Source: Asanoa hainanensis
Lineage (GTDB): Bacteria > Actinomycetota > Actinomycetes > Mycobacteriales > Micromonosporaceae
Direction of reading: 5' to 3'
Assembly (NCBI RefSeq): GCF_900188485.1
Contig: NZ_FZPH01000003.1
Span: 62,001-126,000, forward strand
Length of the DNA: 64,000 nucleotides
Within the stretch, counting starts at the first letter, position 1, and the number at the start of each line of letters is the position of its first letter. Made by a program: the position numbers and the translations under genes. Shown here one piece after another: positions 43,079-48,566 of this stretch. The notes below the pieces were generated by a model. The model was not told the origin of the DNA. It made no database searches and saw only the letters and a program-made list of their open reading frames with translations.

Positions 43079-43842
43079 ATGATCGTGGTGACCGGGGCGA
43101 CGGGTAACGTCGGCCGTCCGCTGGTGCGGGCCCTGACCGAAGCGGGCGAGCGGGTGACGGCGGTGTCCCGGACGACACTGCCGCCCGCCGACCTGTTCCA
43201 GCCCGAGACGCTCAAGCCGGCGGTGGACGGGGCCGCCGCACTCTTCCTGTTGGTGCCGGGTGTCGGCGCGGGGCTCGACATCGACGCGCTCCTCGCGGTC
43301 GCGAAGGCCGGCGGCGTCGAGCGGGTGGTGCTGCTCTCCTCGCAGGCGGTCGGCACGCGACCCGGATCAGCCGCGTACGCGCCGCTGCGGGTCATCGAGG
43401 ACGCCGTCGCCGGATCGGGTCTCAAGTGGACGGTGTTGCGCGCCGCCGGGTTGGCCTCCAACGCGTTCGGCTGGGCCGCGTCGGTCCGGGCGGAGCGCAC
43501 CGTGGCCGCACCGTTCGGTGACGTCGGGTTGCCGGTGCCGGCCGGACCTACGAGCTGACCGGACCGGCCACGGTGACACCCCGCGCGCAGGCGGCGGCCA
43601 TCGGCGCCGCGCTCGGCGAGCCGGTCCGGTTCGTGGAACTGTCCCGGGACGCGGCACGCGAGCGGATGCTCGGCTTCATGCCCGCGCCGGTGGTCGAGGG
43701 CACGCTGGCCGTGCTCGGCACGCCGACCGACGCCGAGCGGCGGGTCAGCCCGCACGTGGCGGAGATCCTGGGCCGCTCGCCCGGCGGATTCGGTGACTGG
43801 GCGCGGCGCAACGTCGCGGCGTTCCGGTCAGAACAGCTGTAG
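43079..43842 (+). pseudogene. NmrA-type NAD(P)H-binding protein gene, disrupted by an internal out-of-frame deletion
   Basis: The first reading frame (43079-43558) encodes a typical SDR/NmrA N-terminus (MIVVTGATGNVGRPLVRAL) up to APFGDVGLPV. It then runs out of frame to a stop. The second part continues in a different frame from about 43534 (AGRTYELTGPATVTPRAQAA) to 43842, ending with VSPHVAEILGRSP and AAFRSEQL, the normal C-terminus of the same family. In intact relatives about 25-35 residues (a DPADIA-type block) separate these two parts, so a deletion and frame change have occurred. The junction lies in short GCCGG repeats. Length would otherwise be about 285 aa. The end overlaps the convergent ABC gene by 15 bp. 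A sequencing error alone would not explain the missing block. Confidence 0.8.
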
Positions 43843-44649
43843 CGAGCCGGTGCGTTGGGCGTGCCGCTCCCCCACCCGCAGGAGCAGGGCCGTCGCGCCC
43901 AGCAGCACCGCCGAGAGGACGGCGAGGAACGTCAGGTGGCCGGCCAGGTCGCCGACGTCCTTGCCGTCGAGCAGGGCGCCGCGGAGCACGACCAGGCTCG
44001 TGGTCAGCGGGAAGACCAAGCCGATCGCCTTGATCCAGACCGGGAGGGCGAACAGCGGCAGGCGTACGCCGGCGATGAACCACAGTGGATCGTCGAGCAG
44101 CGTGTAGAGGAAGGCCGAGTCGCGGCTGAACATCAGCAGGCTGTTGAGGAACGCGCCCCAGGCGACGGCGGGCACCAGCAGGGCCAGCGCGGCCACCGCG
44201 AGCATGCCCGGGTGGGCCAGGTGCAGCGTGCCGGTGGCAACGGCGGCCGCGAGCCCGAAGCACCCGAACAGCCACGCGTTCTGCACGAGCGCGCTGGAAC
44301 CGTTGGCCAGCACCAGCGCCATCCGGCTGGCCGGCGTCAGGAACATCGCCTCCAGCGTGCCGCTGATCCGTTCCCACGAGAAGTGCCAGGCGGACTGCAC
44401 GAGCGAGAAGAAGAAGGTGTACGCGAGCGCGCCGGCGGCCAGGAACGCCAGCAGCCGCCCGGGTTGCGCGACCAGCGGCCACCGCTCCGCCGCGCCCGGC
44501 GCCTCGGTCACCGGCAGCACCGTGTAGTAGGTCGTCGCCAGCGTCAGCACCGGCCACAGCAGCATCGAGAACACGACCAGCTTGCTGCCGAAGATCCGGC
44601 GGTGCTGCTTGAGGCCCTCGGCGGCGAACACCCGCAGGGCGGCCCTCAT
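43828..44649 (-). CDS. ABC-2 type exporter permease (third gene of operon)
   Basis: This 273-aa permease has six predicted membrane helices and the ABC-2 layout. The segment ERISGTLEAMFLTPASRMALVL matches the conserved cytoplasmic coupling region of DrrB/NodJ-like permeases. The ATG at 44649 overlaps the ATPase stop (ATGA). Together with the permease at 45620-46429 and the ATPase between, it forms one exporter, probably a heterodimeric membrane part. By family, drug or lipid export is likely. The operon is controlled from the operator beside the HxlR-peroxiredoxin gene. Confidence 0.9.
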   Translation of the reverse strand: MRAALRVFAAEGLKQHRRIFGSKLVVFSMLLWPVLTLATTYYTVLPVTEAPGAAERWPLVAQPGRLLAFLAAGALAYTFFFSLVQSAWHFSWERISGTLEAMFLTPASRMALVLANGSSALVQNAWLFGCFGLAAAVATGTLHLAHPGMLAVAALALLVPAVAWGAFLNSLLMFSRDSAFLYTLLDDPLWFIAGVRLPLFALPVWIKAIGLVFPLTTSLVVLRGALLDGKDVGDLAGHLTFLAVLSAVLLGATALLLRVGERHAQRTGSLQLF

Positions 44650-45623
44650 CGCGCTGCCACCGAGGTCGGTGTGCCGGCCATCGCCAGGATCGCGTCCTCC
44701 AGCGTCGGCGGGTTGACCTCCAGCCGGACGATCGCGCCTCCGGCCCGGACCACCGCGGTGGCCAGCTCGCCGGCCAGGTCCTCGGGGCTGCGCAGCAGGA
44801 AGGTCGGCCGTTCCTCCGTGTCGACGCCGACCTCGAACTCGGCGCCGAGCGCCGCGACGGCCGCGCTGACCGCCGGCGCGTGCTCGGCCAGGGTCAGCTC
44901 CACCGTGTGCGGCAGGCGGGTGCCGGCGGTCAGCGCGGTCGGGCTGCCCTCGGCGACCAGCCGGCCGTGGTCGACCACGTAGACGTGCCCGCACAGCTGC
45001 TCGACCTCGGCCAGGTAGTGCGAGGTGAGCAGCACGCCGACGCCGTCGCGGGCCAGGTTCGCGACCACCGCGCGCAGGTCCCGCGCGATCGGCGCGTCCA
45101 GGCCCAGGGTCGGCTCGTCGAGCAGCAGGTACGCGGGGGCGTTGATCAGGCCGCGGGCGATGCTCAGCCGCTGCCGCATGCCGCGCGAGTACCGCTCGAC
45201 GAGCGTGCCGGCCGCGTCCGTCAGCCCGACCAGCTCCAGCAGCTCGTCGATCCTGGTGCCCAGCACGGCGCGGGGCACGTCGTAGAGCTGGCCGAAGTAC
45301 CAGAGGTTCTCGCGGCCGGTCAGCCGCGCGTACACCATGCGCTCGCCACCGGCGATCAGGTTGATCCGGCGCCGGATCTCGCGGGCGTGGTCGACGACGT
45401 CCAGACCGTCCACGGTGACCGATCCGGAGGTGGGGCGCAGCAGGGTCGCGAGCACCTTGATGGTGGTGGTCTTGCCCGCGCCGTTGAGCCCGAGCAGGCC
45501 GGTCACCGCGCCGGGCGGGATCGACAGCGAAAGCCCGTCGACCGCGTCGGTCGCGGGGCCGGCCGGCCGGAACAGCTTGCGCTGCGCGGGAAAGCTCTTC
45601 CGCAGCTCGTGCGTCACGATCAC
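44646..45623 (-). CDS. ABC exporter ATPase, DrrA-like
   Basis: The product is 325 aa. Walker A is GLNGAGKTT, the signature YSRGMRQR, Walker B LLLDEPTLGLD and the switch His in TSHYLAEV. An N-terminal extension (LRKSFPAQRKLFRPAG) and a C-terminal domain of about 90 residues are typical of DrrA/NatA-type drug-export ATPases. It begins by overlapping the first permease's stop (45620-45623). Confidence 0.92.
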   Translation of the reverse strand: MIVTHELRKSFPAQRKLFRPAGPATDAVDGLSLSIPPGAVTGLLGLNGAGKTTTIKVLATLLRPTSGSVTVDGLDVVDHAREIRRRINLIAGGERMVYARLTGRENLWYFGQLYDVPRAVLGTRIDELLELVGLTDAAGTLVERYSRGMRQRLSIARGLINAPAYLLLDEPTLGLDAPIARDLRAVVANLARDGVGVLLTSHYLAEVEQLCGHVYVVDHGRLVAEGSPTALTAGTRLPHTVELTLAEHAPAVSAAVAALGAEFEVGVDTEERPTFLLRSPEDLAGELATAVVRAGGAIVRLEVNPPTLEDAILAMAGTPTSVAAR

Positions 45624-46429
45624 GCTGATCCTCCACGTTGGATTGCGATGCGTTCGGCGGGCCCGAGCAGGCGGAGCCCGACGGCGAGGTAGGCGAGGCC
45701 CAGGGCCAGGCAGAGCAACAGGTCCGGCGCGGCGACCGACAGCGGCGCGTGGTCGAGGGTCGCCGCGCGCAGGGCCCGCAGCGCGGAGGTGACCGGCAGG
45801 GCCTCACCGAGCCAGCGGAGCGGGTCGGGCAGGTACGCGGGCGGGAACGTGAAGCCGCACAGCAGGCCCATGGCGACGAACAGCGTGTTCTGCGTGATGT
45901 GCGCCTCGCCGACACTGATCATGATGGCGCTCAGCGGCACGGAGATCCCGAAGACCGCGACGGAGGCCGCCACGAACGCGGCGAGCAGGGTGACCGGGTC
46001 GGGCGCCGGCAGGCGTACCCCGATCATGATCGCGAAGGCCAGCATCACGACGACCTCGACCACCGTCGTGGTGAGGGCTTGCAGACCCACGCCGACCAGG
46101 TACGGGAGCCGCCGGGCGGGGGCCAGCACCTGGCTCTCCAGGGTGCCCTCGCGCTGTTCCGTGATCTGCGCCTTGGCCACCCAGAGCACCATCCGGACGG
46201 TGAACATCGAGGCGGCGGCACCGACGGTGACGTAGCCGAGGTAGTCGGCCGTGCCGGCGGCGGCCGCGAAACCGCCGCCGGCCCGGCCACCCCCGATCGC
46301 GTGGAAGGCGAGATAGGCGAGGCCGACCGTGAGGATCCCGGTGGCCAGCGTGCCGACGAAGTAGGTCCATTGGTACGCCCGCATGGTGACCAGCCAGTTA
46401 CGCCGCAGCGTCGGCAGGGCGGTGGCCAA
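45620..46429 (-). CDS. ABC-2 type exporter permease (first gene of operon)
   Basis: The product is 269 aa with six helices. TEQREGTLESQVLAPARRLPYLVG is the coupling block of ABC-2 permeases. The ribosome site TAGGAGGAA before the ATG overlaps the first AACTTAG half-site of the operator at 46438-46482, so a bound repressor could block this operon directly. It is the first gene of a three-gene exporter operon with 4-bp overlaps throughout. Confidence 0.9.
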   Translation of the reverse strand: MATALPTLRRNWLVTMRAYQWTYFVGTLATGILTVGLAYLAFHAIGGGRAGGGFAAAAGTADYLGYVTVGAAASMFTVRMVLWVAKAQITEQREGTLESQVLAPARRLPYLVGVGLQALTTTVVEVVVMLAFAIMIGVRLPAPDPVTLLAAFVAASVAVFGISVPLSAIMISVGEAHITQNTLFVAMGLLCGFTFPPAYLPDPLRWLGEALPVTSALRALRAATLDHAPLSVAAPDLLLCLALGLAYLAVGLRLLGPAERIAIQRGGSA

Positions 46430-46437
46430 GGTTCCTC

Positions 46438-46482
46438 CTAAGTTTTAATGTGGAACTTAGTCAGTTTCACTTGGGAACTTAG
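46438..46482. promoter_or_regulatory. Three AACTTAG half-sites: probable operator of the HxlR-peroxiredoxin regulator
   Basis: The heptamer AACTTAG occurs on the minus strand (46444-46438) and on the plus strand at 46454-46460 and 46476-46482. The first two form an inverted repeat with a 9-base spacer. The last two are direct repeats 22 bases apart (about two helical turns), each within GGAACTTAGT. The AT-richness stands out locally. The cluster lies between divergent regulator and exporter genes. Confidence 0.75.
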
Positions 46483-46529
46483 TGGCTGGCGCTCAAGATG
46501 TACAGGTCTGGTGTGCGAGGGAGGCTGCG

Positions 46530-47396
46530 GTGACCGCTCGGGTACGTGCCGTCGACGAGGCGTGCGGCATCGCGCAGGCCGCCTCGATCATGGGCGACTG
46601 GTGGAACCTGCTGGTGCTGCGCGAGGTAGCGCGGGGCCACCACCGCTTCGACGAGCTCGTCGCGGAGCTGGCGGTGTCCCGCCGCGTGCTGACCGAGCGG
46701 CTGGGCCACCTGGTCGAGCACGGAGTGCTGTCCCGGCTGCCCTACCAGGACCGCCCGGCCCGTTACGAGTACCGGCTCACCGCACGCGGCGAGGCGTTCC
46801 TGCCCGTGCTGGTCGGCATGCAGGACTGGGCCGACCGCTGGCTGCTCGGTGACGGCACGCTGACCGCGACCGCGCCGCCGGCGGGTGCCGAGCACGACCG
46901 GGTCCGTTCGTTGCTGGGCACCCGGGTGCCGCCGCTGTCGCTGCCGTCGTCGACCGGAGCGGAGCGCGACGTGCTCGACCCGGCCCCGACCGTGCTGTTC
47001 GCGTATCCCGCGACCGGCAGCCCGAACCCCCTGCCGGCGGGCTGGGACACAATCGCCGGCACCATCGGCTGCACCCTGGAGAACCGGCTGTTCCGTGACC
47101 GGCTGCCGGCCTTCCGGGCGGCGGGCGTCGCCGTGCACGGCGTGAGCACCCAGCGTCCCGAGGAGCAGGCCACGTTCGCGGCCGAGGAAGGGATCCCGTT
47201 CCCCTTGCTGTCCGATGTGGACCTGGCTTTGACGGCGGCGCTGCGGTTGCCGACGGTGCGGATCGCCCAGCAGCAGCGCCTCAAGCGGCTGGTGCTGGTC
47301 GCCGACCGCGACCGGGTGGTCCGCCACACGATCTTCCCGGTAACGGACATCCCGGCCGCGGTCGACGAAGTGCTCGCGGTTGGCCGCGAGCTATGA
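46530..47396 (+). CDS. HxlR-type winged-helix regulator fused to a peroxiredoxin-like domain
   Basis: The product is 288 aa from GTG 46530, which has GGGAGG 5 bases upstream; a GTG at 46482 lies inside the operator. Residues 1-108 are an HxlR domain (Cys12 in EACGIAQAASIMGDWWNLLVL, recognition block RFDELVAELAVSRRVLTERL, wing RPARYEYRLTARGEAF). Residues about 128-288 resemble an AhpC/BCP-type peroxiredoxin: TIGCTLENRLFRD with candidate peroxidatic Cys181, HGVSTQRPEEQATFAAEEGIPFPLLSD and DLALTAALRLPTVR. The fusion suggests a peroxide- or electrophile-sensing repressor, with the enzyme domain as sensor. It is divergent from an ABC exporter operon and overlaps the convergent MFS gene by 6 bp. 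Confidence 0.85.
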   Translation: MTARVRAVDEACGIAQAASIMGDWWNLLVLREVARGHHRFDELVAELAVSRRVLTERLGHLVEHGVLSRLPYQDRPARYEYRLTARGEAFLPVLVGMQDWADRWLLGDGTLTATAPPAGAEHDRVRSLLGTRVPPLSLPSSTGAERDVLDPAPTVLFAYPATGSPNPLPAGWDTIAGTIGCTLENRLFRDRLPAFRAAGVAVHGVSTQRPEEQATFAAEEGIPFPLLSDVDLALTAALRLPTVRIAQQQRLKRLVLVADRDRVVRHTIFPVTDIPAAVDEVLAVGREL

Positions 47397-48566
47397 GCGG
47401 GCGAACAGCACGGTAGAGACCAGGGCGAACCCGGCGGCGCCGGCGAACACCGCGCCCGGCGCGGCGTGATGCAGTGACCAGGCGAACGCCGCGCCGGCCA
47501 GCAGCGGCACCGTGGTTTCGGCGACGGCGGCGACGCCGGTCAGGGCGCCGTTGACCGTGCCCCGCTCGTCGGCCCCGGTCACCCGGGAGAGCCAGGACTG
47601 GCCGGCGGCCGCACCGACGGCGCCGAGCACGCCGACGGCCTGGAGCAGGTAGATCGTGGCCGGGCTGGACGCGAATGCGGTGCCGCCCAACGCCACCACG
47701 CCGCACAGGCTGCCCACGACGGCCGCCCGCCGGTCGCCGAGGCGGCCGACGATCCGGCCGACCGCCCGCGCCTGGAAGACGGCGCCGGCGACGGCGCCCG
47801 CCGACATCGTGACGCCGACCTGGACCGTGTTCCAGGCGAACTGGTGGACGACGAAGAACGTCCAGATCGCCTGGTGCGTCATCCGGGCGACGTCGGCGCA
47901 GAACCGGGCGAGCATCAGCCGGCCGAGCACGGGCCGGCGCGCGACAGCCGCGATCGCCGCGAACGGGCTGGCCGCACGCAGGCTCAGCGGCGTGGTCCGG
48001 TCGCCGGGCCGGGACTCCGGCAGGACCCACCAGCCGTACGCGACGTTGGCGAAGGCCAGGCCCGCCGCTGCCCAGAACGGCAGCCGCGGGTCGACGGCGC
48101 CGAGCAGACCGCCGATCACGGGCCCGGCGACGAAGCCGAGCCCGAACGCGGACCCGACCAGCGCGAAGGCGTGGGCGCGCCGGTCCGGCGGGGTGACGTC
48201 GGCGACGTACGCGTTGACGACCGTCGCGGTGCCACCGCAGGCGCCGGCGAGCGCGTGGCAGACCAGCAACAGCCCGACCGTCGGGGTGAGCGCGTGCCCG
48301 ACCCAGTCGAGCCCGAGGCAGGCCAGGGCGACGAGCAGCACAGGACGGCGGCCGTACCGGTCGGCGAGCCGACCGAGCAGCGGCGCTGTCACGAACTGCG
48401 CGAGGCCGAACATCGACCCGAGTAGCCCGGACCAGGCGACGGCGTCGGCCGACCGCCCCGTGAGGTCCAGCATCAGGGCGGGCACGATCGGCACGACGAT
48501 GCCCAGACCGAGCATGTCGACGAAGACGGTGACGAGCAGGAACGAGAGGGCAGGCGCCCGACGCAT
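47391..48566 (-). CDS. MFS transporter, TetA-like drug exporter
   Basis: The product is 391 aa with 12 predicted membrane helices. Motif A is GRLADRYGRRPVLL, between helices 2 and 3, and the first helix (VFVDMLGLGIVVPIVPAL) matches the TetA/MFS.1.2 group (drug:H+ antiporters). A second-half motif is GRLGDRRAAVVG. It is a single gene, convergent with the HxlR-peroxiredoxin gene by 6 bp. By family it should export a small hydrophobic drug or metabolite. The substrate is not known. Confidence 0.9.
   Translation of the reverse strand: MRRAPALSFLLVTVFVDMLGLGIVVPIVPALMLDLTGRSADAVAWSGLLGSMFGLAQFVTAPLLGRLADRYGRRPVLLVALACLGLDWVGHALTPTVGLLLVCHALAGACGGTATVVNAYVADVTPPDRRAHAFALVGSAFGLGFVAGPVIGGLLGAVDPRLPFWAAAGLAFANVAYGWWVLPESRPGDRTTPLSLRAASPFAAIAAVARRPVLGRLMLARFCADVARMTHQAIWTFFVVHQFAWNTVQVGVTMSAGAVAGAVFQARAVGRIVGRLGDRRAAVVGSLCGVVALGGTAFASSPATIYLLQAVGVLGAVGAAAGQSWLSRVTGADERGTVNGALTGVAAVAETTVPLLAGAAFAWSLHHAAPGAVFAGAAGFALVSTVLFARS

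Follow-up and report, generated by a model that had tools for sequence, protein, structure and literature searches.

Locus and Domain Architecture

The window (64,000 nucleotides from Asanoa hainanensis, a soil actinobacterium) codes for a protein which combines an HxlR-type DNA-binding domain with a peroxiredoxin domain. The adjacent genes code for an ABC exporter and are divergently transcribed. Two predicted operators are located between the two transcription units. The features are listed in window coordinates.

43828..44649, minus strand: probable second exporter permease, 273 aa (PF01061, E 0.0015; 18.6 bits, under the gathering score of 26.9)
44646..45623, minus strand: ABC exporter ATPase, DrrA-like (PF00005, E 1e-28; TIGR01188, 260.8 bits, under the cut-off of 312.45)
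45620..46429, minus strand: ABC-2 exporter permease, divergent from the fusion gene, TTG start (PF01061, E 1.8e-14)
46433..46439, minus strand: likely ribosome-binding site (AGGAGGA) of the first exporter gene, proposed from the sequence; it touches O1
46438..46460, no strand: predicted operator O1, CTAAGTTTTAATGTGGAACTTAG (13/16 consensus positions)
46460..46482, no strand: predicted operator O2, GTCAGTTTCACTTGGGAACTTAG (15/16; 22 bp from O1)
46530..47396, plus strand: HxlR-peroxiredoxin fusion gene, a single open frame of 288 aa with GTG start; full-length homologues were found
46563..46565, plus strand: codon of Cys12, the N-terminal cysteine of the HxlR part
46587..46844, plus strand: HxlR winged-helix domain, residues 20-105 (PF01638, E 5.4e-22; 4gcv_A, E 6.4e-22)
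46896..47393, plus strand: PrxQ/BCP-type peroxiredoxin domain, residues 123-288
47070..47072, plus strand: codon of Cys181, candidate peroxidatic cysteine, directly ahead of helix 183-197
47286..47288, plus strand: codon of Arg253, candidate catalytic arginine, which aligns with the arginine of 5enu

A preliminary description of this DNA had proposed an HxlR domain followed by a BCP/AhpC-like domain. Both Pfam profiles are found in this order and exceed their gathering scores (HxlR, PF01638, 77.9 bits with a cut-off of 20.8; AhpC-TSA at residues 177-266, E 2.4e-12). The C-terminal half is predicted to adopt a thioredoxin-like peroxiredoxin fold, with Cys181 just before a helix, as had been expected for this residue. 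Cys181 is part of the motif GCTLENR, and Cys12 and Cys181 are the only cysteines of the protein. The predicted model is weak at residues 1-16 and 98-115, so the distance between Cys12 and Cys181 cannot be taken from it. Arg253 may have a catalytic role. The divergent ABC-2 exporter, also proposed in that description, is confirmed by the permease and the ATPase that follows it.

On the other side of the fusion gene, a convergent MFS gene (47391-48566, minus strand) is similar to efflux pumps of the Tet(A) type (NF012174, 226.5 bits, under the cut-off of 475). A homologue of this MFS gene adjoins the fusion gene at L009 (92% identical) and L010 (82%). When the genes next to the fusion at 66 loci were compared, no others matched this MFS gene at E 1e-20.

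Distribution of the Fusion and Its Relatives

The closest named relative is a protein from Asanoa ishikariensis (93% identical). In the family of the window, 150 genomes were sampled, and 56 of them have a homologue near full length (E 1e-30 or better). At E 1e-40, near-full-length homologues were found in 28 of 101 genomes from a Streptomyces-like genus, the identity of which we infer. The question of how often the fusion occurs can thus be answered: it is recurrent. A sample of 396 genomes spread across the phylum has 6 with a match at E 1e-30, and both halves are covered in only three of these, including the window's own genome. The fusion is thus frequent in certain groups but scarce in the phylum as a whole. 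Among plasmid records, two of five matches are annotated as winged helix-turn-helix regulator, and the other three have no annotated feature at that position.

Genome contigs were scanned, resulting in 80 loci, of which 66 code for fusions (L009-L074) and 14 for HxlR only (L075-L088). Operator and neighbour counts refer to 87 fusion genes: the window, the 66 named loci and 20 further loci, which we picked from the 56 family genomes with a match. Residue counts refer to 86 clean fusions. L069, which is interrupted by unread bases, and L074, which is cut off by the end of its contig, are excluded from residue counts and included in operator and neighbour counts; L111 is used for residue counts only. 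L060, which is devoid of its N-terminus, was kept. The set of stand-alone peroxiredoxins comprises 27 of the 30 loci found, some of which may carry other fused domains.

The stretch between the HxlR and peroxiredoxin halves is lengthened in 9 of 86 fusions, eight from Nonomuraea and one from [Actinomadura] parvosata (L025, L037, L048, L058, L061, L065, L070, L072 and L073). The linker of L072 has visible tandem repeats. The unfused HxlR relatives L075-L087 have a C-terminal CxxC segment (putatively zinc-ribbon-like) in place of the peroxiredoxin domain.

Related peroxiredoxin domains also occur fused to a different DNA-binding domain, MerR instead of HxlR (L005; L140-L142, L144-L148 from the Streptomyces-like genus). 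These proteins belong to a separate part of the tree. In the Streptomyces-like genus, 9 of 101 genomes match across MerR and peroxiredoxin (one with an internal stop), and the eight which were read keep the CxxxxC pair. L005 is from the same genome as the window (G000:C21:169241-172792, minus strand), and both of its active-site cysteines are replaced.

A Conserved Palindrome at Fusion Promoters

Upstream of the fusion genes, a 23-bp palindrome is found, with the consensus GTNAGTTYC-N5-GGAACTNAC (16 positions scored). Best scores among the 87 genes were 16 in 23 cases, 15 in 41, 14 in 14, 13 in 5, 12 in 2, 11 in 1 and 8 in 1 (L060), but the consensus was derived from the same 87 sequences, many from close relatives, so that scoring is neither blind nor independent. 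Cumulatively, at least 14/16 is reached for 78, and at least 11/16 for 86 of the 87 genes. In 1740 Markov (dinucleotide) shuffles, the maximum was 12/16, with about 1% reaching 12 and 6% reaching 11. Paired palindromes (each at least 11) occur in 55 of 87 upstream stretches versus 2 of 1740 shuffles. The two sites of a pair are 21-22 bp apart in 20 cases, 24 bp apart in 6 and 31-33 bp apart in 29, thus mostly near two or three helical turns. We consider this conserved inverted repeat a putative operator.

The preliminary description had noted three heptamers in the divergent region. These are indeed present, AACTTAG twice and its reverse complement CTAAGTT once, touching the ribosome-binding site of the exporter, and they represent three of the four arms of O1 and O2. 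Conservation of AACTTAG itself is not observed: at least one copy is found in only 5 of 87 upstream stretches (the window, L009, L010, L070 and L096), while the palindrome reaches at least 13/16 in 83 of 87. For this reason, three AACTTAG half-sites are ruled out as the recognition unit, and the 23-bp palindrome takes their place.

The whole genome was searched with two patterns. The core pattern (up to one mismatch) matches only O1 and O2; since the reversed control matched three times, this number is not above chance, and the search has weight because both true matches sit in the promoter of the fusion gene itself. The long pattern (up to three mismatches) has 18 strand matches at 13 places, with 4 for the reversed control. 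Only O2 matches with up to two mismatches; O1 has three, the same as 11 other places. A large regulon is not supported by this long-pattern search. A sigma-70-like promoter was not detected by consensus at 46350-46620.

A palindrome of the same type, ATGAGTTCATTCATTGAACTGAC, is found in the same genome at G000:C24:215509-215531, upstream of another HxlR gene (L007); its distance to the stretch that was matched (C24:215151-215435) is about 75 bp. This would suit an HxlR-type operator.

Exporters and Other Neighbours

To find neighbours, seven reference proteins were compared by tblastn with the stretch upstream of the Cys12 codon, 2600 bp long unless cut off by a contig end. Matches were counted when their near end was within 700 bp. 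The best match is an exporter on the opposite strand at 75 of 87 loci (MFS_3 at 33, other MFS at 11, ABC at 31). Given 44 MFS and 31 ABC cases, a specific pairing with an ABC exporter is ruled out. The exporter classes are unrelated; thus, the regulator is retained although the kind of exporter differs from locus to locus.

At 5 of 87 loci, an O-methyltransferase is encoded on the opposite strand in place of the exporter. At three loci (Nonomuraea), a FAD-dependent aromatic-ring monooxygenase/hydroxylase is encoded upstream on the same strand. Such neighbours may hint at aromatic, quinone-like compounds. Seven of 87 loci have neither a divergent exporter nor a methyltransferase, and four have none of the neighbours searched by tblastn.

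Cysteines and Active-Site Residues

Cys181, the candidate peroxidatic residue of the preliminary description, is retained throughout the 86 fusions, as are Pro160, Gly180, Glu184, Gln208 and Arg253. Arg253 is also found in all 27 stand-alone relatives. Invariant columns are spread across both halves of the fusion. It is conceivable that the protein is mainly an enzyme, with the HxlR part serving only as a tether or for autoregulation. The conserved active-site residues speak for this, but the spread of invariant columns speaks against it, as does a divergent exporter at 75 of 87 loci with the palindrome between the genes or nearby. We consider a mainly enzymatic function highly improbable.

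Position 186, five residues after Cys181, is the resolving position of PrxQ. It is a cysteine in only 7 of 86 fusions, compared to 26 of 27 stand-alone relatives and eight of the nine MerR fusions. The window protein has Arg186 and thus lacks the CxxxxC pattern of a 2-Cys PrxQ. In the maximum-likelihood tree of the peroxiredoxin domain, the HxlR fusions group together (support 99/94). All seven fusions with Cys186 are found in a single, weakly supported part of 18 rows (85/66), interspersed with rows that lack Cys186. By our reading of the tree, the resolving cysteine may have changed three times, either by three losses or by one loss and two regains. The stand-alone proteins L112 and L113 group beside the HxlR fusions and are possibly the closest unfused relatives.

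Classical peroxiredoxins have a threonine or serine three residues ahead of the peroxidatic cysteine. At this position (178), the 86 fusions have Thr (30), Ala (52) or Gly (4). The window protein has Thr178, and all 27 stand-alone relatives have Ala. Because of the frequent Ala, it is uncertain whether the domain is competent as a peroxidase.

The peroxiredoxin domain might instead be a scaffold for ligand binding or dimerization in an ordinary drug-responsive HxlR repressor, with Cys181 not used in redox sensing. The variety of adjoining exporter classes fits a drug sensor. The replaced threonine, the missing resolving cysteine (79 of 86 fusions) and L005, which lost both cysteines while its frame stayed open, also point in this direction. 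A mere scaffold would, however, have no need for Cys181 and Arg253, which are invariant down to about 46-50% identity to the window protein. We consider the scaffold function rather unlikely.

Cys12 is present in 85 of 86 fusions, the sole exception being truncated at the N-terminus. An N-terminal cysteine is also found in 18 of 20 unfused HxlR proteins (6 from the same genome, 14 from the HxlR-only loci). Thus, conservation of Cys12 does not show coupling to the peroxiredoxin domain. From Cys12 onward, 33 of 86 fusions, including the window protein, have no cysteines other than Cys12 and Cys181. Because the window protein has only these two, any disulfide inside its dimer must use them.

Comparison with Known Systems

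The Bacillus subtilis HxlR (DUF24) regulators HypR, YodB and CatR use conserved N-terminal cysteines to sense HOCl, quinones and diamide, as described in PMC6943732, and provide a precedent for a thiol switch in HxlR proteins. They share with the fusion the winged helix, the N-terminal cysteine and the likely control of detoxification genes. They differ in having the sensing cysteine on the winged-helix protein itself, with no peroxiredoxin domain mentioned in that description. By analogy, Cys12 alone might be the sensor, with the peroxiredoxin domain scavenging peroxide locally or tuning sensitivity. The near-invariance of Cys12 and its counterparts in unfused HxlR proteins agree with this possibility. 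A self-sufficient scavenger would, however, be expected to keep its resolving cysteine, as the stand-alone proteins do and most fusions do not. We thus regard sensing by Cys12 alone as unlikely, even more so than a scaffold function.

The peroxiredoxin half resembles PrxQ/BCP proteins (Mycobacterium tuberculosis BcpB, 5epf; Xanthomonas PrxQ, 5iiz) in fold, in a peroxidatic cysteine at the start of a helix and in the conserved arginine. Those proteins, however, are enzymes and have no DNA-binding domain. Unlike most HxlR fusions, the stand-alone relatives keep the resolving cysteine of the CxxxxC pair. M. tuberculosis AhpE (1xvw, 5id2), which has been studied with mycothiol and is called a 1-Cys peroxiredoxin in the titles, is also an enzyme with no DNA-binding domain attached.

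Relays in which a peroxiredoxin hands oxidation to a transcription factor provide a precedent for the transfer from Cys181 to Cys12 which is proposed below. Orp1-Yap1 is one such pair. Prx2-STAT3 is likewise described as a peroxiredoxin redox relay in PMC7481202. Both consist of two separate eukaryotic proteins, whereas the fusion would hold both partners on one chain.

Proposed Mechanism

We think it probable that the fusion is a one-component repressor which controls the divergent exporter operon through its thiols, with the peroxiredoxin domain as sensor. As a dimer, it would bind with its HxlR domains to the pair of tandem 23-bp palindromes in the intergenic region, holding down the exporter and probably also its own gene. 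Cys181, activated by the peroxiredoxin pocket, would react with peroxide or else with an electrophile, for example a quinone from redox-cycling aromatic compounds. Either Cys12 of the HxlR domain or a low-molecular-weight thiol could then resolve the oxidized Cys181. This change would free the DNA, and the exporter would be made. A one-protein sensor had already been proposed in the preliminary description. The fusion, the conservation of the operator and the linkage to exporters are borne out by our comparisons, while DNA binding, repression, redox sensing by the peroxiredoxin domain, oxidation and resolution of Cys181, and DNA release are what we infer.

It is tempting to speculate that, once a PrxQ peroxiredoxin had become joined to an HxlR repressor, Cys12 took over as the resolving cysteine. 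A Cys181-Cys12 disulfide, within or between subunits, would then mark the DNA-binding domain, and the old resolving cysteine would have become dispensable and been lost, perhaps three times. We consider this intramolecular relay a tentative proposal, clearly less probable than the repressor function as such. If true, it would be a bacterial single-chain counterpart of Orp1-Yap1.

Novelty and Significance

We found no published description of an HxlR-peroxiredoxin fusion in the open-access literature searched, in agreement with the preliminary description, which named HxlR regulators with redox cysteines (YodB, HypR) but none with its own peroxiredoxin. Passages of PMC4763440, PMC6943732, PMC9240718, PMC8533066, PMC9368920, PMC9751292 and PMC3403918 contain no mention of it. 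The HxlR gene which PMC4763440 describes next to a cluster for a naphthoquinone macrolide codes for 128 aa, so that its product is not such a fusion. The parts of the fusion are of known kinds; what is new is their combination in proteins most of which lack the resolving cysteine.

It is a general question how regulators can sense peroxide with thiols that react slowly. A repressor with its own peroxiredoxin would answer it by construction. The proposal is easily testable, as the fusion family is common in two sampled groups, the palindrome is clean and the window protein has only two cysteines. If true, the sensing of oxidants or quinones would be linked to drug-type exporters in actinobacteria.
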